Shown here piece by piece: positions 38,077-64,000 of a stretch of DNA of 64,000 nucleotides. Every line of letters starts with the position of its first letter. The stretch's first letter is position 1. The DNA is from a virus. Location of the stretch: the IMG/VR virus record IMGVR_UViG_3300035660_000002, positions 1 to 64,000 of that record. One strand, written 5' to 3'. Position numbers and translations under genes: made by a program. Under the pieces are notes generated by a model, which was not told the DNA's origin, searched no databases, and saw nothing but the letters and a program-made list of their open reading frames with translations.

Positions 38077-38772
38077 TTATTTAATCAACCCTTGCATACT
38101 CAACCGAATCCTGTTTGTATAAAATCTTTTCCAGTATTCTCTATTATGATTTGCTCGAGTGTTGCACCAAGTACAAACCGTTGCCAAATTCGTAGGTTTA
38201 TTATTCTTTTTATCATAGTCGCTATGATGAACGTGCAGAACACGACCAATCACTGTAATATGTTCCATCTCTGCCATACCACAACCTAAACATGCGTAGT
38301 TGTCACGTTTCCGTATGCTGTCCTTTATATCACGGAATTCCACCGAGTAGGGTTCAAAGGATGATCCACCTCACCAATTTGGGTGTCTTTCTCCTCTATT
38401 GTATTTACTCTTACAGATCATGCATCTCCGTGCATGCTTATGCTTTGCACCTCCACAATCCGGGCAAATAGTACGCCCCTTCCAATTCCAGTGAGCCTCC
38501 CCGCTCCGTGCACGTTTCTTCGCAATCTCTGGATTGTCGCGTAGTGCTTTTTTTACAGATTTGCTAATCTTCCCCTTGTGGTCATTCGGTAGTATCTTTC
38601 CCTTCAATGCCTTCGAATTAGCTAATCCTATCTTTCTCTTATGCTCTTCTGAGAGAGGTTCCCGTTTTCTCCCAAGGTGCCCTAATCGGCATTTCTCCCG
38701 AAATGCTTTAGACCGTTTCTTCCCTTTCCAATCACTTGGCCCCGAAACAAATCTACCCAGTGCATCTCTCAC
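38077..38772 (-). pseudogene. HNH homing endonuclease broken by an in-frame TGA (232 codons)
   Basis: Two frames in the same phase form one gene. Codons 1-133 (38371-38772) have NUMOD3 repeats (LSEEHKRKIGLANSKA) and zinc ribbons, ending HPNW. A TGA at 38371-38373 follows, and the frame continues directly with GGSSFEPYS and an HNH core (CLGCGMAEMEH, VHHSDYDKKN, CTWCNTRAN) to 38077. Relatives here read NWxGG, so TGA probably replaced CGA. Other genes use TGA as stop, so recoding is unlikely and the gene is probably dead. Confidence 0.85.
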
Positions 38773-42805: not shown

Positions 42806-43714
42806 TTACATATTTTCTTTGGCACTTTGCATCATCTCCAAACAGCACGCCATGAAATTTATCTCATGGTCTGCCACATAAGAATCCCGCGCCATGTATT
42901 CAGCAATTCGTAATCGCTTCTCTGTCTGCTTTATATTGTCTTGCTCTATCTCGCCAATGTTATCAAAGAGATATCGAAAAACCTGAATGTGGTCCAACCT
43001 GTATGCTATCTCGCGCAACCCGTTCATGTTCTTTTCCTTGATGAGCTTCATTACCAGAATGTTCTCGTTCAGGTCCTCACGGATCTCTTTCAGCACCTTC
43101 CCTGTGGTCGAGAGTTGCATGGCATTGATCATGGCGCGCATATCTGGATAATAGGCGTCTACAAGCCCTAGGACGGTGTCTGTGTCGTGTTTCACCTTCT
43201 CCTGCCCAAGGATGCCCTGCAGCTGCTTAAAACATGCCTTTCTGGGCACCTCCTTGAACTCTATGAACTGGCACCGGCTGCGGATCGGTTCGATAATTTT
43301 GTTCAGATAGTTACATGTAAGAATGCAACGACCTCGACCTGCACATTCTTCCATCACATTTCGCATTGCCTGTTGAGCTTCCGGAGTGAGTCCATCCGCC
43401 TCCTCACACAGTATAATACGCCACTTGTGTGATCCACGTATAGCCATAAAATTAGTAAACTTGTTACGCACAACATCGATGCCCCGATCACTACTTGAAT
43501 TCATAATCATCGTATCAGCATTCAGCGTATGCAACAGTATTTTTGCAATCGTAGTTTTACCTGTGCCGGGCTTTCCGCTAAACAAAAGATTAGGAATATC
43601 CCCATTCCTAATGTACTCTTCAAACGTATTACGTATTCCCGGATCAAGCACTACGTCCTCTAACTTCTTAGGTCTATATTTTTCTACCCATAAACTGTCG
43701 AACACGTTTGCCAT
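42806..43714 (-). CDS. clamp-loader AAA+ ATPase, gp44/RFC-like (302 aa)
   Basis: Start at ATG 43714 (MANVFDSLWVEKYRPKKL), the RFC signature, with GGAGGA upstream. Walker A GKPGTGKTT near 45, Walker B LCEEADGLTPEAQQAMR, SRC arginine finger (PIRSRCQFIEF). It loads a sliding clamp onto primer ends. The upstream HNH gene overlaps its first 41 bases, and its 5' third looks AT-richer than the rest. No partner small subunit (gp62) is recognised. Confidence 0.9.
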   Translation of the reverse strand: MANVFDSLWVEKYRPKKLEDVVLDPGIRNTFEEYIRNGDIPNLLFSGKPGTGKTTIAKILLHTLNADTMIMNSSSDRGIDVVRNKFTNFMAIRGSHKWRIILCEEADGLTPEAQQAMRNVMEECAGRGRCILTCNYLNKIIEPIRSRCQFIEFKEVPRKACFKQLQGILGQEKVKHDTDTVLGLVDAYYPDMRAMINAMQLSTTGKVLKEIREDLNENILVMKLIKEKNMNGLREIAYRLDHIQVFRYLFDNIGEIEQDNIKQTEKRLRIAEYMARDSYVADHEINFMACCLEMMQSAKENM

Positions 43715-44618
43715 TAGTATCCTCCTCCACACGTTCTTGCCAAAACTTTTTCCAAAATTTTCTGTTATGCGCCATCTTGCCATGACATACTCTGCACAAA
43801 GATACTAAATTCTTCTCATCTATATGTTTTTTAATGTAATCCACATGATGCACTGATAGTTTTTCCCCAGCTTCTACCTCGGGCACGCCACACAATCTAC
43901 ACTTATATCCGTCCCTGTATCTTATCTGCTCTTTATGTGTCTTCGTCCATCCTAACGGATATGGCACAAATGATATACCGCCGTGCCAATTTCCATTCCT
44001 ATCTCCTCTTATATTTCTGCCAAGGTATTTGTGCAAAGGACAAAACTTATACCTATAGTCCTTAAGGGTTATTCCACAAAACAAACATTTACTGCCTTTT
44101 GCAACCCTACCATCAATGTAACTTCCACAATCCTTCCCATGTGAAATATGCTTCCTACGATCTATGCCCTTTGTTTCATCACTATATTTTTGTCTTAATG
44201 TTATTCCCTCAATACTGCTCCAAAATATAGTTGCTGATTCCTTTTTAGACCTTATCAAAATTTTGTATCTTAAGAGAGCCCGATAAATACTTGCTTCTGC
44301 CCTTCCAAACTCTTTTCCTATGCTATGTATGCTTCTACCTTTGCGCACATACTCTTGCATCAGCATTTCTTTATTCAGCACCTTGGCATATTTGCCTTTT
44401 ACAAAGGCCCACTCTCCGTTACAAGTCTCACATCTTGTAGCATGCCATTGTATTCGCTTACCACAATCAACACAACGATTGATCTTAAGCGTTCTTCCAT
44501 CAATGTATCGTGAGTTGTTCTTACCCTTCTGGGCACAAGATTTACATCGGACAGCCCCGGTTGCCTTAGAGTTCTTTCCCAGAGGCTTCCCGCAATCTTT
44601 ACATTTACCTCTGCCCAT
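43674..44618 (-). CDS. HNH homing endonuclease with zinc ribbons (314 aa)
   Basis: Three CxxC zinc ribbons in the first 70 residues (CKDCGKPLG, CKSCAQKG, CVDCGKRI, CETCNG), a helix-turn-helix near 85-110 (RSIHSIGKEFGRAEASIYRALL), another zinc finger, then the HNH core CRLCGVPEVEAG, VHHVDYIKKH and CRVCHGKMAHNRKFWK. AT-rich. Inserted directly in front of, and overlapping, the clamp-loader gene. Confidence 0.92.
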   Translation of the reverse strand: MGRGKCKDCGKPLGKNSKATGAVRCKSCAQKGKNNSRYIDGRTLKINRCVDCGKRIQWHATRCETCNGEWAFVKGKYAKVLNKEMLMQEYVRKGRSIHSIGKEFGRAEASIYRALLRYKILIRSKKESATIFWSSIEGITLRQKYSDETKGIDRRKHISHGKDCGSYIDGRVAKGSKCLFCGITLKDYRYKFCPLHKYLGRNIRGDRNGNWHGGISFVPYPLGWTKTHKEQIRYRDGYKCRLCGVPEVEAGEKLSVHHVDYIKKHIDEKNLVSLCRVCHGKMAHNRKFWKKFWQERVEEDTNGKRVRQFMGRKI

Positions 44619-48013: not shown

Positions 48014-48825
48014 CTATACAGATACATTTTTCTTTGTTTTGTCCACAAGTTTACTTATAAAGTGCTCTTTCCAATGCTCTCTGTTGAAGTTAACCCGGGA
48101 GTTACACGCTTTGCATAAAGAATTCAAGTTATTCTTATCACAATTTTTCTTATCATAGTCTATGTGATGCACGTGCAAAGGTATGCCATACACTATCAAA
48201 TGCTCTTCTTCAGTCATACCACAACATTGACAAGTATGTTCATCACGTTTCCGTATCTCCCCCTTCAGCACATCATTAAATTCAAAAGGATAGGGCTCAT
48301 TAGAAACACCACCACGCCACCGATGACTCTTCGGTCCCTTCTGAGCTTCGCTCATCTTTTTAATAGATTCAGTCGAAAACTTTCTTCCTTTAAGTGCTTT
48401 ACTTATTAACTGCCTACTTTCCTCTGTATGATGTTTTCCAAGAAAGTTTGTATTTCCTATAACTCCTGCCCTGATCTTATCCTTCTCCTCCTCGGTACGG
48501 TGCCTTCCTAAAACATATTTTTGTTTAGACATGCGATTCCGAAGTTCTATGAGGCACCCCGCAGAGAGCTTATGTTTTGTTCCCAAACCAACGCCTGGTC
48601 TTTTTCTTCCCCTCAACTTAACTTATCGCCTATCTTTCTTTTATGTTCCTCAGACATCTTCTTTCCTGTCATTCGAGGAGAGTAGTAATCAAGCTTTCTA
48701 CCCTTGTTCCAAGGAACTTGCCCCTTCTTAAATTCCCCTTCTACGCATCTACGAACACCTTTTTGAAATTTTCCTTTGATCCTGCTCTTATGCCAGGCAG
48801 TCCTGACATATACACCTCTAGGCAT
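48014..48825 (-). pseudogene. HNH homing endonuclease broken by a 5-bp tandem duplication
   Basis: The first part (48613-48825) runs MPRGVYVRTAWHKSRIKG to IGDKLS and stop. The rest (48014-48616), in another frame, runs RGRKRPGVGLGTKH through NUMOD3 repeats to an HNH core (CQCCGMTEEEH, VHHIDYDKKN, CKACNSRVN). At the junction AAGTT occurs twice in tandem (48615-48624). Removing one copy joins the frames as IGDKLRGRKRPG. A duplication thus inactivated the gene. It overlaps the end of the helicase gene. Confidence 0.85.
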
Positions 48826-50610: not shown

Positions 50611-51330
50611 TTACATCTTGTACACATTACTAATAAGAAAACCAGAACCAATACGTCTTTGAGCCGTCTTTTCCTCAAAGTGCTTTTTCCAAAAATCTCT
50701 GTCGAAGTTTGTTCTCCGATGACAGTGCCCGCACAAGCTTACCAAGTTATTTATATGCACATTTCTTTTATTATAGTCTATATGATGAATATCCAACTTT
50801 CTAAGGCACTCTGATTCCGGAGTTCCGCACTCCACGCACTGAAATCCATCTCGCCATCGCACTTCACGCTTAAGCGCTCGGGTCCATTTTTCAGAGTATT
50901 TCTCAAAAGATTTACCATTTTGCCAGTTCGAGCTCTTGGCGCCCACCTGTCCAAAGGAAGTTAATCCACTTCTTACCCTAAATTTAGAATTACAAGATAA
51001 GCATCTCTTTGAGAATCTATGCCGAAGTTGCTTGCCACAGTCCATGCAATGCGCAACCTCCCCCTTCCAGTTCCTATTTTTACATCCAGTCTCCTTCTTC
51101 AGCATAGTACTTATTATTTTCCTGTGTTTCCATGACAATTTTTTTCCTCTCTCTGTGATACCGTAGCACTTTCGGCATCTTTTTATATGTGTATGCCTAC
51201 CAATCTCTACACCACAATCAATACATAATTTAATCTTCCTGTGCGCCTTTCTATAAAGCGTATAACATTTCCAACATCTTTTTGCGTTCCTATTCGCAGT
51301 TCCTTTCCCACAATCAACACAGCTATGCAT
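50611..51330 (-). CDS. HNH homing endonuclease with zinc ribbons (239 aa)
   Basis: Begins MHSCVDCGKGTANRNAKRC; three zinc ribbons, then HNH core CVECGTPESECLRK, IHHIDYNKRNVHINN and CGHCHRRTNFDRDFWKKH. AT-rich. Starts 2 nt after the primase stop and ends next to the helicase operon, so it has been inserted between two replication genes. Confidence 0.92.
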   Translation of the reverse strand: MHSCVDCGKGTANRNAKRCWKCYTLYRKAHRKIKLCIDCGVEIGRHTHIKRCRKCYGITERGKKLSWKHRKIISTMLKKETGCKNRNWKGEVAHCMDCGKQLRHRFSKRCLSCNSKFRVRSGLTSFGQVGAKSSNWQNGKSFEKYSEKWTRALKREVRWRDGFQCVECGTPESECLRKLDIHHIDYNKRNVHINNLVSLCGHCHRRTNFDRDFWKKHFEEKTAQRRIGSGFLISNVYKM

Positions 51331-52484: not shown

Positions 52485-52763
52485 TTACCCCTGCGGTGGC
52501 GCCTCCACCTTCTGAAGAGAAGACACTCTCGGCCAGTACAGCTTCTTTCCGCCCTTTACTCCCGTGACTAACACGAGATAGCTTTCATGGTTACGAGCCA
52601 TTCCGTCAAACTGGCAACTCACATGCGAAACCTCCGTATCACGAATTACATTACACGGATTTAAGCTTGGAGGAACTACCAATGCAACAACCCCTTCCTT
52701 CGCTTTCGTGTATCCTGCGGCCTGACTTGCCCACTGCACTTTATCCCCGACTTTTAATTCCAT
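52485..52763 (-). CDS. conserved phage hypothetical protein (92 aa)
   Basis: Begins MELKVGDKVQWASQAAGY, a KVGDKV beta-barrel start recurrent in phage and prophage proteins of unknown role, ending in a Pro/Gln tail. Directly downstream of the ParB-methyltransferase. Confidence 0.7.
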   Translation of the reverse strand: MELKVGDKVQWASQAAGYTKAKEGVVALVVPPSLNPCNVIRDTEVSHVSCQFDGMARNHESYLVLVTGVKGGKKLYWPRVSSLQKVEAPPQG

Positions 52764-52764
52764 G

Positions 52765-54093
52765 CTATCCTCCTTTGATCTCTTTCCATGTTTTGTTATC
52801 GCCTGCCCGGACAGGATCCTTGCCCGTGAACTCCTGCCACCGATCCAATATTATTCCGCAATATACAGGAGCTATCTCCATCATATAGCACTTCCGAAGC
52901 ATTATCTCGGCCGCCACCATAGAAGAGCCGCTTCCGCCGAATATGTCCACGATTATTTCATCGCGCCGGGTGTACAGCAGAAGATGCCTTGTGACCAGTT
53001 CTATCGGGAATGCCGCCACATGCCCTGTCTGCGTCGCATTGCCCCGGATATCGTTCCAAAACCCCTTTAGGGCCCACTTCTGCCCTGTCCTGAACGATCC
53101 CCTGCTTATGCCATCCCTGTTGTAGAACGTCTCAAGGATGTTGATATCATCCTCTGCCAGCTTGTCCTCGAACTTCATATCCACACCTTCGTCGTTCTCA
53201 AAGGTACCTATAAATTCGCTGTGCTGATCTATCAAGTCCGACCGCAGGTCGACCGACCGCAGCTGCCCTCCCTTTATCCAATGCCGGATGTGCCGCAGGT
53301 TCCATCCAAGAGCAAACAGATTGTTCGTCCACTTGTCAATCAGGAGCATCACCTGCCTCTTATGCTTCTTGTCAAATGCTGTCGTGAACCCGGTGCCTGT
53401 ATTGATCACGATCCTGGAATCGTCCTTCTTTACGATAGTCACCATGGCCACACAGATGTCATGAATGAACTTATCTATCTCAGGGACGGATTTTTGAGTT
53501 TCGTATGCCTTCCCAACCCAATATGGTGGGCTCGAAAACAGCAAGCTCGCCTGCTTGCCGTCCATAAGCTTTTCGAGATCCGTGATACTTGTTGAATCCC
53601 CGCATAGAAGCCTATGCTCTCCAAGCACAAACAGATCGCCGCGCACCACATATTCCTTTGGCAGCGGTTCTGGTATCTTGTCCGGATCCTTCTCCTCGCC
53701 GGAGTTCTCAAGTATCCTATCCAGCTCCTCTTTGCTGAATCCAACATCCTTCAGCATCGCTTCCGTATATTCATTCAGCTTGGCCCAATCCCATTCCGCG
53801 AATTCCTGAGCCTTATTATCCGCAAGTATGAACCTGGTCCTCTGGTCGGGCGTCATTCCCGATATCTTTATAACAATGGGTATGACTACTCTTCCAACCT
53901 TCACCATCGCCTTGTATCTTGTGTTTCCCGCGAGTATCGTATCCGTCTCATCCACTATGATCGGACTAATGTAATCCGAAGATTGTATACTTTTTATAAC
54001 TTCCTGCACCGCTTTTTCGTTTTGCCTGGGGTTATCAATATTCAATTTAATTTTTTCTATAGGCACATCTGTAAGTACTTCTCTTGCTATCAT
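52765..54093 (-). CDS. ParB-domain / SPPY DNA methyltransferase (442 aa)
   Basis: Residues 1-110: ParB/Srx-type domain (DNPRQNEKAVQEVIKSI, TILAGNTRYKAMVKVG). Residues ~150-425: methyltransferase with catalytic SSPPYW (N4-cytosine type) and SAM-binding DIFGGSGSSMVAAE. It probably modifies phage DNA against restriction. The first ~37 codons are AT-rich (about a third GC, hand count) unlike the rest. They follow an HNH gene that overlaps the start, and a truncated copy of this start lies on the other side of that gene. Confidence 0.85.
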   Translation of the reverse strand: MIAREVLTDVPIEKIKLNIDNPRQNEKAVQEVIKSIQSSDYISPIIVDETDTILAGNTRYKAMVKVGRVVIPIVIKISGMTPDQRTRFILADNKAQEFAEWDWAKLNEYTEAMLKDVGFSKEELDRILENSGEEKDPDKIPEPLPKEYVVRGDLFVLGEHRLLCGDSTSITDLEKLMDGKQASLLFSSPPYWVGKAYETQKSVPEIDKFIHDICVAMVTIVKKDDSRIVINTGTGFTTAFDKKHKRQVMLLIDKWTNNLFALGWNLRHIRHWIKGGQLRSVDLRSDLIDQHSEFIGTFENDEGVDMKFEDKLAEDDINILETFYNRDGISRGSFRTGQKWALKGFWNDIRGNATQTGHVAAFPIELVTRHLLLYTRRDEIIVDIFGGSGSSMVAAEIMLRKCYMMEIAPVYCGIILDRWQEFTGKDPVRAGDNKTWKEIKGG

Positions 54094-54694
54094 AAAAACC
54101 CCTCTCTTTCATTTTGTTACTATAAAATTCTTTCCAGTAACCTCGGTTACTATTAGCCCGAATATTGCACCAAAAGCACAAAGTTATCAAATCCTTCTGC
54201 GCAACACTACTCTTATCATAATCTATATGATGTACATTCAGAACTTTACCTAAGACAATCAAGTGTTCTTCTTCCGTCATCCCACAGTTCTGACATGTGT
54301 AGTCATCCCTTTTCCGTATCCCATCCCGAAGTTTTGAATCGAACTCAAAGTGGTAAGGTGCCCTTGATACTCCGCCGTGCCAATTCGGATTATTCTTTCC
54401 TACATGGAATTTTGTGGCACACGGTTTACATCTCGCCACACCGTAATCAGACAGCTTTGCTCCGCAGTCAACACACTTCGGTTTCCCTCCCTTCCACCTA
54501 GGGTGCCTATCCCCAAGCAAAGATTTACTAATCTTGTTTCTTGATTTATTAGAATGATGATGCCCTGCAAAATGACTAGGCTTACCTTTCATAGCTAAAC
54601 TCAGCTTATCCTTATGTGCGGCAGACAACTTCACCCCAATCTTTGATAATCGTATCTTTCTTTTAGTTTCCGCACTGCACTTTCTGCCCCTCAT
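54047..54694 (-). CDS. HNH homing endonuclease with NUMOD3 repeats (215 aa)
   Basis: NUMOD3 DNA-binding repeats (CSAETKRKIRLSKIGVKL, HHSNKSRNKISKSL), zinc ribbons (CVDCGAKLS, CKPCATKFH), NPNWHGGVS and HNH core CQNCGMTEEEH, VHHIDYDKSS, CFWCNIRAN. Starts ATGA-overlapped with the truncated ParB fragment and runs 47 bases into the start of the complete methyltransferase. The cassette looks like an insertion at codon ~36 of a ParB-methyltransferase. Confidence 0.92.
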   Translation of the reverse strand: MRGRKCSAETKRKIRLSKIGVKLSAAHKDKLSLAMKGKPSHFAGHHHSNKSRNKISKSLLGDRHPRWKGGKPKCVDCGAKLSDYGVARCKPCATKFHVGKNNPNWHGGVSRAPYHFEFDSKLRDGIRKRDDYTCQNCGMTEEEHLIVLGKVLNVHHIDYDKSSVAQKDLITLCFWCNIRANSNRGYWKEFYSNKMKERGFYDSKRSTYRCAYRKN

Positions 54695-54801
54695 ATGCTT
54701 TTCACTACTTGGTCGATCGCCTCATCATTGACCCTCGGATTGTTAGGGTTGAGCTTTATGGATCCTATCGGTACGTCTTTCAACACGTCTCTTGTTATCA
54801 T
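54691..54801 (-). pseudogene. truncated 5' end of a ParB-methyltransferase (36 aa)
   Basis: ATG 54801 after AAAGGAGAGGGC; reads MITRDVLKDVPIGSIKL, NPNNPRVND..., ending VVKSI then TGA inside the HNH start. It matches the first 36 residues of the genes at 52765 (22 identical) and 56359 (24 identical). Hand-counted GC is about 43%, higher than the equivalent part of the 52765 gene. A relic of the target gene cut off by the HNH insertion. Confidence 0.85.
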
Positions 54802-55099
54802 GCCCTCTCCTTTGTGCTCTTAGTTTTATCAAATCCTTTCTAAGAGATTCATTTACCTGTTTAATTATAGAGACCACATTCCTAGCGTTATTCCATCTGG
54901 TTGATTGCATACCAATAAATATTCCTTGAATCCTATGCATACCATCTTCAAGTTCATATACTCCAAACTGGTCACGCTTCTTAAGGTACTTAACCATCTT
55001 GTTATACACTACAACAAGCTCGTACATGAGTTGATCTTCTTCTGCGGTCCTATACATCGGTGTCAGCTGTGGGAACCTCCGCCAGTACACTTTTTTCAT
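54743..55099 (-). CDS. hypothetical protein (118 aa)
   Basis: Starts MKKVYWRRFPQLTPMYR; helical (EEDQLMYELVVVYNKMVKYL). The last 20 residues are very basic and are encoded by the DNA of the ParB fragment in another frame (59-base overlap). Function unknown. Confidence 0.55.
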   Translation of the reverse strand: MKKVYWRRFPQLTPMYRTAEEDQLMYELVVVYNKMVKYLKKRDQFGVYELEDGMHRIQGIFIGMQSTRWNNARNVVSIIKQVNESLRKDLIKLRAQRRGHDNKRRVERRTDRIHKAQP

Positions 55100-55101
55100 C
55101 T

Positions 55102-55371
55102 TTATGAACTCCTCGGACTTTTCTGCGCTGTATAAATGACCCGGGCTATTGCACTTTTTACAGTTTCACTGCCCCCCATGTAATCCAGATATATAACCTT
55201 TACAATTTCTTTTTCGCTCAGTCCCACTCCATGTTCTGTGACAGATTGAAGCACAGAACGAGCATCGGTCAATGCCTGCCTGTAATCAAGCTTGCTTCCT
55301 AAACGGAAACCGCCCTTGTCTATCAAGTCGGTCAATGCTTCGATGCTGTTTTTCAATCTTTGAGAATTCAT
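55102..55371 (-). CDS. hypothetical protein (89 aa)
   Basis: Helical, starts MNSQRLKNSIEALTDL after AAAGGAG; GVGLSEKEIVKVIYLDYM in the centre. Two bases from the next ATG. No family recognised. Confidence 0.55.
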   Translation of the reverse strand: MNSQRLKNSIEALTDLIDKGGFRLGSKLDYRQALTDARSVLQSVTEHGVGLSEKEIVKVIYLDYMGGSETVKSAIARVIYTAQKSPRSS

Positions 55372-55384
55372 CTTCGTGCTCCTT

Positions 55385-55474
55385 TCAAATTAGAGATTCA
55401 TCCTCTGCCAAAATAGTGATAACTGTCACTGATTCTCCGAAGTGCAACATCGCACTCGACTGCACAATACTCAC
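55385..55474 (-). CDS. possible small protein (29 aa)
   Basis: GTG 55474 overlaps the stop of the upstream gene, with AAGGA 10 nt before. Reads MSIVQSSAMLHFGESVTVI. The frame fits the gap between two called genes, but a start this weak may be chance. Confidence 0.35.
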   Translation of the reverse strand: MSIVQSSAMLHFGESVTVITILAEDESLI

Positions 55475-55668
55475 TACTTTCTTATCCTTAATCCATTGCC
55501 CTTCTCTATCGCTTCCGTGACACAATGAATGCACACACAGTTCTTATCCAAGTTGTGCAGTGATACCCATACCTCCCGACCGCACTTGCAGCACGGCACC
55601 AGCACATAATTAAATATGTGCTCATCCTCTTTACTTACACAAAGCACATAAATTTTAGGCTTACTCAA
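55474..55668 (-). CDS. small zinc-ribbon protein (64 aa)
   Basis: CCKCGREVWVSLHNL followed by CVCIHCVTE: two CxxC pairs of a zinc ribbon. Overlaps the HNH gene end by 8 bases. Function unknown. Confidence 0.6.
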   Translation of the reverse strand: MSKPKIYVLCVSKEDEHIFNYVLVPCCKCGREVWVSLHNLDKNCVCIHCVTEAIEKGNGLRIRK

Positions 55669-56353
55669 CTTTTAGTTTCTCCATCCAAATATCACGATTG
55701 TGGTTCGTCGTCACGTGGCATGTATGACACAAAGAAATCAAATTATTAGATCTTAAATTCTTCTTATCGTAGTCAATATGATGAACATCCAGTTTCCTAA
55801 AGCAGTCCTCTTCGTGCTTACCACACACCTGGCACTTTCTCCCGTCTCGATCCCGGATCTTTTCTTTGAATGCCTTTGTCCATCCAACGGCGTAAGGCTT
55901 GCTTGATATACCACCCCGCCAAAGAGGACTCTTATTCCCAACAAATCTTTTGCTCATATCTAATGAGTAACATTTTTTGTTGCAGTATCGCTGATCTCTA
56001 CAATACGTCTTAAAAGTCTTACCACATCCCGCACAAGAAATAACAGCAGGAGGATTCATCTTAGCTCGACATTTCCATCCACAGTATTTAACTATCCTAA
56101 GTCTTCCTCCAAATTTACCATTTTGCTCTTTTACCGACCTAAACTTTTTTCCGCATACCAAGCATTTTTTTATTGGGGCTCTCCTCGTATGTGGATAGTG
56201 CTTTCCTTTCTTCGTAGACCCGGCAGCACTAATATATTTGTACCGACACGCCTTACTGCATGTTTTCTGTGTAATTGCTCTGCATGCCGCCTGTGCATAA
56301 AACTCTTTGCCGCAAACTCTGCATACCAAACGAGGCCTAACGATCTTTCTCAT
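55661..56353 (-). CDS. HNH homing endonuclease with zinc fingers (230 aa)
   Basis: N-terminal zinc fingers (CRVCGKEFYAQ, CLVCGKKFRS, CAGCGKTFK), then HNH core CQVCGKHEEDCFRK, VHHIDYDKKNLRSNN and CHTCHVTTNHNRDIWM. AT-rich. Inserted right behind the DPPY methyltransferase. Its last residues, KLKVE, repeat the last residues of that methyltransferase with different codons. Confidence 0.92.
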   Translation of the reverse strand: MRKIVRPRLVCRVCGKEFYAQAACRAITQKTCSKACRYKYISAAGSTKKGKHYPHTRRAPIKKCLVCGKKFRSVKEQNGKFGGRLRIVKYCGWKCRAKMNPPAVISCAGCGKTFKTYCRDQRYCNKKCYSLDMSKRFVGNKSPLWRGGISSKPYAVGWTKAFKEKIRDRDGRKCQVCGKHEEDCFRKLDVHHIDYDKKNLRSNNLISLCHTCHVTTNHNRDIWMEKLKVE

Positions 56354-56358
56354 TTTAT

Positions 56359-57711
56359 TTATTCCACTTTCAGTTTGTTTGTATCGTAAGACTGCCCATT
56401 ACATATTATTGACAACATCGGATACATAGTATACATTCTTCTTAGAACAACGTCCACATATTTCTTTTCACAATCCATTGCGTAGCATACCCTACTATTT
56501 TCCTGCGCGGCAATCATAGTGCTGCCTCCACCACAGAAAGGATCCAACACTATCGATCCTCTATGCGAACTCGCCATAATTGCCTTCGCGCATAAATTTA
56601 TGGGCTTCTGATTCGGATGCCACGGTGTCTTGCTTGGTTTCTTCTCCCTCCACACATCTGTCTCGCCGCGCTTGCTCACAATCTTTCCGGTGACCATGCC
56701 ATCCAGCTCGATGTGGTAGTCCCCCACCCGTATTATAGTTTTCTTGCCGTCAAAGACCGGGTGTATCGCCTCGATCCCTTCCCATACGTTCCCCTCATCG
56801 CGCCATCCTGAGAAGTAGTGGCTCTTATTCTTGCCGTTCCATCCATACATGATGGGCTCGTACTGGTTCTGCCAGTCACACCTTGAGAGAGTGAATGTGT
56901 TCTTTACCCATATGATATTCGCCTGCCAGTGCCCGCCACACTCCACAAATGCCTTCTTGAGCTGCCCTATTTCCTTCGAGCTCATGCATATGTAGAAGCA
57001 CCCCTCACAGACCTCCATCATCGGCGCGATCACGCCCTTCAAGAATGCGAAGAACTGTTCCTCTGTCATGTCGTCGTTCACGATCTTATCCCTAAGATGT
57101 TTACCCCCCTCACTCGACATCCCACCCTCATAATTTATGTTATAAGGCGGATCCATAAATATCATGTCGATCTTCTTTCCGTCAATGAGCTTTGCGTAGT
57201 CCTCCCTCTTAGATGCATCCCCGCATAGTATCCTATGCTCGCCTATCTGAAATAGATCCCCCATCTTAATATCCACGTTCTCGCGGACATCGACCGGCAC
57301 TCTATACTCGTCCTTGTCGCCCGGGTTCATGATCTTGTCCAGCTCTGCGTCTGTAAATCCCACATCCGCAAGCAACTCCTCCGTAAATATCGCCATCTTT
57401 TCCCAGTCCCATTCCGCAAACTCCTGCGTCTTGTTGTCAGCCAGGATGAAACGCATCTTCTGCTTATCCGACATTCCTTTCATCCGGATAACCGTCGGTA
57501 TCGTTGTCCTTCCGAGAGATATCATCGCCTTGTATCGAGTGTTACCCGCCAGTACCTCATTGTTCTCGTCTACGATGATCGGAGTTATAAATTCAGAATC
57601 CTTAATACTTTTGATGACCTCTACGACCGCCTCTTCGTTCTTCCGAGGATTGTTAGGATTAAGTTTTATGTCCTTGATCGGAATATCCGTAAGCACTTCA
57701 CGCGTTATCAT
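56359..57711 (-). CDS. ParB-domain / DPPY adenine-type DNA methyltransferase (450 aa)
   Basis: Start at ATG 57711 (MITREVLTDIPIKDIKL) with GAGGGGG. ParB domain (NPNNPRKNEEAVVEVIKSI, VLAGNTRYKAMISLG), then methyltransferase with MDPPYNINYEGG, KTPWHPNQKPINLC target region and SAM motif LDPFCGGGSTMIAAQE. It methylates DNA, probably N6-adenine. The 3' ~250 bases look AT-richer than the rest and abut the HNH gene, suggesting remodelling. Confidence 0.9.
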   Translation of the reverse strand: MITREVLTDIPIKDIKLNPNNPRKNEEAVVEVIKSIKDSEFITPIIVDENNEVLAGNTRYKAMISLGRTTIPTVIRMKGMSDKQKMRFILADNKTQEFAEWDWEKMAIFTEELLADVGFTDAELDKIMNPGDKDEYRVPVDVRENVDIKMGDLFQIGEHRILCGDASKREDYAKLIDGKKIDMIFMDPPYNINYEGGMSSEGGKHLRDKIVNDDMTEEQFFAFLKGVIAPMMEVCEGCFYICMSSKEIGQLKKAFVECGGHWQANIIWVKNTFTLSRCDWQNQYEPIMYGWNGKNKSHYFSGWRDEGNVWEGIEAIHPVFDGKKTIIRVGDYHIELDGMVTGKIVSKRGETDVWREKKPSKTPWHPNQKPINLCAKAIMASSHRGSIVLDPFCGGGSTMIAAQENSRVCYAMDCEKKYVDVVLRRMYTMYPMLSIICNGQSYDTNKLKVE

Positions 57712-57943
57712 ACGTTCCCCCTCTTTCAATAAATTTTATAGTCTCATCCGCGTCAAACCAACTTCCGAGCATTACCCGACCGGATATCCTGATAATCCAC
57801 CTTCTGAAAAATCCCATGCGCTTTCCTATGCTTTGCACGCTGCTTTTTTTATCAGTATTGCTTTTGTGCGTCTGCCATCCATCCAAATATCCAAGCATAT
57901 AAAAAAGAAGCGCAAGGAACCCTAAAAATATCAGTCTACTCAT
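57698..57943 (-). CDS. small membrane protein (81 aa)
   Basis: N-terminal transmembrane helix (MSRLIFLGFLALLFYMLGYL) followed by a Lys/Arg-rich domain. Overlaps the methyltransferase start. Function unknown. Confidence 0.6.
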   Translation of the reverse strand: MSRLIFLGFLALLFYMLGYLDGWQTHKSNTDKKSSVQSIGKRMGFFRRWIIRISGRVMLGSWFDADETIKFIERGGTYDNA

Positions 57944-58145
57944 CTTTGTGCTTTATCCTGTGATGCCGTCTGCCCACTTCCTTCTCACGGCGGATCACAC
58001 TAATCTTATGCTTTTTGCATTCGACCTCGACTATCGAATACCTATTGTTCGGGTACCTACGCCGAAGATCCCCTAAGATCTTTTGCATCCTTTTGTTCTT
58101 CCTGCGCTTAGTATCCGAAACCTTACTCTCGTTCACTTCTCTCAT
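57936..58145 (-). CDS. small basic protein (69 aa)
   Basis: Start at ATG 58145 (MREVNESKVSDTKRR) after AAAAGGAG. Very rich in Lys/Arg (RRKNKRMQKILGDLRRR, RHHRIKHKDE), so nucleic-acid binding is possible. Overlaps the next gene by 8 bases. Confidence 0.55.
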   Translation of the reverse strand: MREVNESKVSDTKRRKNKRMQKILGDLRRRYPNNRYSIVEVECKKHKISVIRREKEVGRRHHRIKHKDE

Positions 58146-63674: not shown

Positions 63675-64000
63675 TCATCGAACTTTCGAGGTATTAAAGT
63701 CTATCTGGACTCGCATATCCCCCAAGTTGTTGGGTTGATTGCCTGTAGCTTTCATTATAGTTTGAAAGTACATCGTCCAGTATCCTCTGTTGTAATTAAC
63801 CGATGTATTGCATCCCGAACATAGTGTTATGAGGTTACGCTCTCGGTCATTTCTCTTGTCATAGTCGATGTGATGCACCGTTGTACTTCTCAACGCTCCA
63901 CACCTTTGGCAGCGATAACCGTCTCTATTTCTGATCTTATCTCGTATGTTGCCTGGCTGCGTGCTCTTGAAATATCCTGTATGGTAGTATGGAGTCGGCA
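63675..64000 (-). CDS. HNH homing endonuclease, 5' end outside window
   Basis: The frame is open from the right edge to TGA 63675. HNH core visible: RNRDGYRCQRCGAL, VHHIDYDKRNDRERN and CSGCNTSVNYNRGYW. The unusual ~30-residue tail after the core (NNLGDMRVQIDFNTSKVR) may be remnant coding sequence of its target gene. N-terminus missing. Confidence 0.85.
   Translation of the reverse strand, partial: PTPYYHTGYFKSTQPGNIRDKIRNRDGYRCQRCGALRSTTVHHIDYDKRNDRERNLITLCSGCNTSVNYNRGYWTMYFQTIMKATGNQPNNLGDMRVQIDFNTSKVR

Follow-up and report, generated by a model that had tools for sequence, protein, structure and literature searches.

The methyltransferase locus described here is likely occupied by a free-standing homing endonuclease cassette of an "insert and rescue" type, in which an HNH gene and a diverged copy of its target's 5' end together interrupt and restore the gene. 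The stretch of DNA analysed (the window) comprises bases 1-64000 of an IMG/VR virus record of 133,462 bp in all. On its minus strand, a 36-codon relic ORF is followed by an HNH gene and then by a 442-codon ParB_N/N6_N4 methyltransferase gene. This anatomy is shown, and it bears out a first-pass annotation, made from the sequence alone, which had described a relic ending at codon 36, an HNH gene, and a restarted, complete gene overlapping it.

The relic (54694..54801, minus strand) corresponds to codons 1-36 of a ParB-methyltransferase and is assigned as the 5' end of the invaded gene by its sequence and by the match of its GC3 to the gene body. It encodes MITRDVLKDVPIGSIKLNPNNPRVNDEAIDQVVKSI, stops at a TGA (54693-54691) that overlaps the ATG of the HNH gene (ATATGA), and has a Shine-Dalgarno sequence of its own, AAAGGAGAGGGCATG. 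The free-standing HNH gene (54047..54694, minus strand) encodes a protein of 215 aa with a NUMOD3 motif (Pfam, E=3e-7, above the cut-off). The Pfam HNH model gave no reported match for the window protein itself, although it is reached by the protein's relatives. The core reads CxxC...HHIDYDK...CxxC, with HHIDY and the two CxxC pairs invariant in an alignment of 10-11 relatives, and the protein's profile matches the phage HNH nuclease 5h0m (E=0.0013). Conserved motifs and profile match together indicate an HNH nuclease core (beta-beta-alpha, zinc); cleavage and biased inheritance are inferred. The rebuilt methyltransferase gene (54093-52765, minus strand) opens with MIAREVLTDVPIEKIKLNIDNPRQNEKAVQEVIKSI, its first 47 bp lying within the 3' end of the HNH gene, as does the likely ribosome-binding site GAGAGGGG that precedes its start. 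Alignment and composition delimit its AT-rich, diverged 5' end (codons 1-36; 53986..54093), while Pfam matches (ParB_N and N6_N4_Mtase) and identity to the relative L003 mark the native body, from codon 37 to the stop (52765..53985). Relic and rebuilt end both finish at KSI. The mobile cassette, inferred in part from empty-site comparisons, would thus span 53986..54693 on the minus strand, that is, the HNH gene plus the rebuilt 5' end, set between original codons 36 and 37. The phage carries other HNH genes of the same family (38077-38772, 43674-44618, 48014-48825, 50611-51330 and 63675-63893), and among those in the window 38077/38371 and 48014/48613 are apparently broken.

Which of the two 5' ends is the newcomer? 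Relic and rebuilt end are identical at 68/108 nt and 22/36 aa, with GC contents of 43.5% and 32.4%, respectively, in agreement with the earlier hand count of about 43% and 32%. At third codon positions, G or C occupies 20/36 sites in the relic against 10/36 in the rebuilt end, and the remainder of the gene has a GC3 of 0.62. Under the composition of the body, the rebuilt value is improbable (P=3.6e-5) and that of the relic is not (P=0.27), and none of 371 body windows has a GC3 as low as the rebuilt end. Because the rebuilt end departs from the body and the relic does not, composition identifies the downstream 5' end as the foreign copy. The break itself is shown: its best single position is codon 43, with codons ~16-59 within 2 log-likelihood units (permutation p=0.0005), consistent with the predicted break near codon 37. 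A drop in GC3 this large at the start of a gene is seen in only 3/114 genes of the phage, but such AT-rich starts do occur naturally, and this counts against the cassette reading. Given that 14 of the 36 residues differ, the new end is a diverged homologue and not a synonymous recoding; the description "recoded" therefore held only in part, and "diverged" fits better. In the window, the diverged-copy reading rests on this break and on the precise junctions at codon 36.

The arrangement is general, as shown by a screen in which nuclease genes were gathered from IMG/VR by their own sequence, disregarding the flanks, and the two flanks of each gene, upstream and downstream, were compared in translation. 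A score of 40 or more was taken as a hit, and 510 other genes from the same contigs, with nuclease homologues removed, served as controls; the first control sets had included GIY-YIG homing genes, themselves with the duplication pattern, and the final controls exclude these. Flanking duplication was found at 15/177 HNH or NUMOD/GIY-YIG genes and at 5/510 controls (Fisher p=4e-6). Fourteen of the 15 hits look genuine on inspection, covering ~10 target genes at their 5' or 3' ends; the sample is not random, and four hits represent one family. The window pair scores 116, against 74 for the next best real case and 55 for the best of the 510 controls, and chance similarity is therefore excluded. 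Duplications of the 5' type affect the window methyltransferase, a family-2 glycosyltransferase (L010), a replicative helicase (L173/L168) and the L149-family gene; no obvious Shine-Dalgarno sequence precedes the restored gene in L010 and L173. Those of the 3' type affect a DNA-polymerase-like gene (L018), RusA (L022), an HTH gene (L034), genes in L053 and L083, and methyltransferases in L188 and L195, and in L022, L034, L053 and L083 the displaced native terminus is now an in-frame tail of the nuclease. Over 13 duplicated pairs, 58/135 codons (43%) at identical residues are still identical, and hence nothing points to selection for codons as different as possible. Clear duplication was absent at 11 reference-phage HNH loci outside the E. 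coli T-even phages, and none was clear at T4 segF, segA or mobB. Two candidates were rejected: the tail of the L188 methyltransferase family, considered as cassette-borne, also occurs in "rebuilt" form in HNH-free phages and is thus a natural second tail type, and a match at T4 mobA was merely its own short ORF compared with itself.

Several further loci deserve mention in their own right. A second ParB-methyltransferase gene of the window and the HNH gene right behind it (55661-57711) both end in KLKVE and a stop, encoded differently in each, which may reflect the same event in a short, 3'-type version. At L003 1-1382, a homologue of this second methyltransferase is split by an HNH gene lying between its ParB and methylase portions; a new, zinc-finger-like N-terminus heads the restarted methylase portion. 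In L193 (850-2080, GIY-YIG-like) and L197 (1963-2622, Vsr-like), a nuclease gene lies downstream of a hybrid methyltransferase, and its product ends in the methylase's displaced native tail. L310 (3275-3400) has no nuclease gene, only an atypical methyltransferase tail, a short stretch resembling an HNH gene end, and a native tail; this may be the scar expected after nuclease loss.

In two sister systems, HEG-free siblings show which copy is which: the native sequence is in the relic, and the newcomer lies downstream. For the L149-family target, the gene of the HEG-free L200/L201 begins with MDNKKITPITRINK joined directly to FFSEEDFGLEISMG (FFSEEDF after the junction in L200). In L198/L199, MDNKKITPITRINK persists as a stop-ended relic, followed by a GIY-YIG/NUMOD3 gene and then by a gene in which MSKPIVPITRINK is joined to FFSEEDFGLEISMG; the flanks of the insert agree between L198 and L200 at 91% on the upstream side and 86% on the downstream side. 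The relics of five carriers in different phage backgrounds resemble the local native alleles, while the rebuilt start MSK[PS]IVPITR is present in 5/5 cassettes and 0/75 empty loci. A shared ribosome-binding site, AAAGGAGTTAAATATG, ends the nuclease gene in all three carriers checked (L198, L252 and L268). Over ITPITRINK, rebuilt and relic sequences differ at just 4-9 of 27 nt, so any protection in this family may be modest.

The second system is nrdG of T-even phages, which in HEG-free members (AR1, PhiZZ23, AV112, RB69 and Klebsiella phage YP11) overlaps the end of the preceding gene. The initial 40 nt of the HNH-like gene of Escherichia phage Paracelsus are exactly those of PhiZZ23 nrdG, and the initial 40 nt of the nuclease gene of Klebsiella phage ValerieMcCarty03 exactly those of YP11 nrdG, each departing at nt 41. 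Downstream, nrdG has the same foreign start in both carriers, MNYDRIYPCCFVN, where the natives have MNYDRFYPCDFVN and MNFDRIYPSDFVN. Relative to native PhiZZ23, the Paracelsus gene differs at 12/51 positions in the first 51 nt and 23/420 beyond (p=9e-5); for ValerieMcCarty03 and YP11, the values are 11/51 and 20/420 (p=1e-4). Between the mobC carrier BCPShso_001 and Paracelsus, there is 1 difference in the first 51 nt of nrdG and 98/420 in the rest. At least 80% of the Paracelsus cassette is found in 30 phage records. In Pfam, the nuclease-gene products of Paracelsus and ValerieMcCarty03 have only weak matches to I-HmuI-like NUMOD models; their annotation is putative homing endonuclease. T4 mobC (L378 42446-43538) starts with MNYDRIY, like the downstream nrdG (seven residues shared, 21/24 nt), which suggests nrdG as the target of MobC. 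In T6 (L400, nrdD-segH-nrdG), the unrelated SegH occupies the site without a relic, and nrdG has the same rebuilt start as in Paracelsus; one rebuilt allele is thus common to different homing genes. Together, these two independent sibling families (L200 versus L198, and PhiZZ23/YP11 versus Paracelsus/ValerieMcCarty03) provide direct evidence for the earlier proposal that the mobile gene brought a diverged 5' copy. That the copy is uncleavable, as was also claimed, remains an inference without cleavage data. SegH, which acts at the same T-even site, reportedly cleaves carrier and non-carrier DNA alike, and resistance of a rebuilt end can therefore not be assumed.

We propose the following model for the window. 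The HNH enzyme would cut the methyltransferase gene in its 5' part, at a site predicted to lie around codon 36, and repair from a carrier would install the HNH gene together with a replacement of codons 1-36 from a diverged homologue. Within the 3' end of its HNH gene, the cassette would also deliver a ribosome-binding site, restoring the host gene as a chimera. The severed native 5' end would remain upstream as a leader ORF, and its original start signals may feed translation into the HNH gene via the ATGA overlap. As the replacement differs in sequence, we propose that the cut site is not rebuilt and that the two copies recombine less readily. The position of cleavage, the resistance of the rebuilt end, translational coupling and active homing are all inferred. 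In cassettes of the 5' type, the 3' end of the nuclease gene may hold the start signals of the restored gene (GAGAGGGG in the window, AAAGGAG in L198). The logic common to all cases would be that a nuclease gene enters coding sequence and leaves the severed terminus behind as a relic, its cassette providing a homologous terminus of different sequence.

Could the two 5' ends instead be the remains of two genes? The first-pass annotation had offered deletion of a tandem paralogue as its alternative: two full ParB-methyltransferase genes once stood here, and HNH insertion or deletion left 36 codons of the first. In its favor, the same phage has the second ParB-methyltransferase upstream (57711-56359), about as similar to relic and to rebuilt end as those two are to each other. 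However, the duplication stops at the same codon in both copies, the composition breaks inside the surviving gene and not at its start, and empty-site sister systems show insertion into a single gene. No HNH-free relative with two full tandem genes was found, and L003, the only HNH-free relative found (58-59% identical), carries a single gene with the start MIEREVLHNVSLDAVKLNPDNPRINDEAVNSVIKSI. L003 is distant and contradicts the tandem alternative only weakly, and a search of IMG/VR, GTDB genomes and a phage collection for closer relatives of the methyltransferase yielded none close enough. Matching the relic at 21/36 aa and 70/108 nt and the rebuilt end at 22/36 aa and 61/108 nt, L003 is about equidistant from both and hence leaves the native copy in the window undecided by phylogeny. 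On balance, the tandem alternative is disfavored and appears unlikely.

We give less credence still to an intergenic HNH gene without a rescue role, the similarity of its flanks arising from gene conversion or recombination with the paralogue. At the protein level the paralogue is indeed slightly closer to the rebuilt end (27/36) than to the relic (25/36), and it might have supplied sequence through ordinary recombination, a possibility that counts against the cassette reading. Yet rebuilt end and paralogue agree at only 72/108 nt (67%), so there was no recent conversion, and unrelated target genes show the same architecture, with nucleases of two families. Phage introns commonly house HNH genes, and the 5' ends might be exon-like pieces around an intron or intein; this is practically ruled out, as 52500-58000 contains no Rfam match even at E<=1, the gene downstream is complete and has a start of its own, and the flanks are duplicated, not split. 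It also seems most improbable that the relic persists because it serves as a regulatory leader peptide, with the duplication a mere side effect. The good Shine-Dalgarno sequence of the relic and the overlap of its stop with the HNH start would fit, and the idea is compatible with insertion and rescue, but it leaves unexplained both why the downstream copy is atypical and why 3'-end versions exist without any leader.

What is the wider relevance of insertion with rescue? Accounts of free-standing homing genes usually treat them as passengers between genes. A bolder reading, towards which the balance of the evidence tips only slightly, is that many such endonucleases of phages, HNH and GIY-YIG, including T4 mobC, are natural home-and-rescue drives that move as a unit of nuclease gene and sequence-diverged target-gene terminus. 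If true, this unit lets homing genes enter conserved coding sequence and escape renewed cutting, and chimeric genes remain once the nuclease is lost. Such a break-and-repair cassette would explain the intron-free occupation of conserved coding sequence, as well as mismatched termini in some phage genes, and would be a natural counterpart of synthetic recoded-rescue gene drives. Among its predictions for laboratory T-even phages is that the nrdG start serves as a recognition site for both the Paracelsus nuclease and T4 MobC.

Known systems share parts of this arrangement. A review of the T-even seg and mob genes places free-standing homing genes intergenically, with distant cut sites, and lists the target of mobC as unknown (PMC2988022). 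Like these promoter-less HNH or GIY-YIG genes, the window gene overlaps its neighbors; unlike them as reviewed, it interrupts coding sequence and rebuilds it. The T4 review makes no mention of flank duplication (PMC2988022), although an earlier description of the nrdG duplication elsewhere is not excluded. In phage ShiLan, too, an HNH gene is inserted in a methylase gene, hidden there, and the insert opens with 11 residues that resemble the 11 following the site (PMC11855218), a similarity that insertion with rescue could possibly explain. The ShiLan insert is read through in the methylase frame, with HNH out of frame, whereas the window insertion is not open in the host frame (the relic frame stops at codon 37) and the host gene restarts from a new 5' end. 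The engineered home-and-rescue drive HomeR, directed at an essential gene, likewise sits inside its target with an altered terminus, a re-coded one of 22-27 residues (PMC7968924) compared with 10-36 residues in the phage cases. HomeR is synthetic, Cas9-based and acts at the 3' end, whereas the window case is natural and its resistance to cutting only inferred. The closest precedent comes from fungal mitochondria, in which mobile endonuclease ORFs with C-terminal gene hybrids have been described for Glomus atp6, atp9, cox2 and nad3 and Allomyces atp6, the inserted copy being 64-81% and the native copy 91-98% identical in DNA to a relative's gene (PMC3630166). As in the window, an endonuclease gene is combined with a heterologous target terminus and the native terminus is displaced as a relic. 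The described fungal cases all replace the 3' end, are mitochondrial and employ LAGLIDADG or GIY-YIG enzymes (PMC3630166), whereas the window holds an HNH cassette at a 5' end in a phage, and 3' versions occur in phages too. We therefore regard the window as the phage, 5'-end form of a strategy already described in fungal mitochondria.
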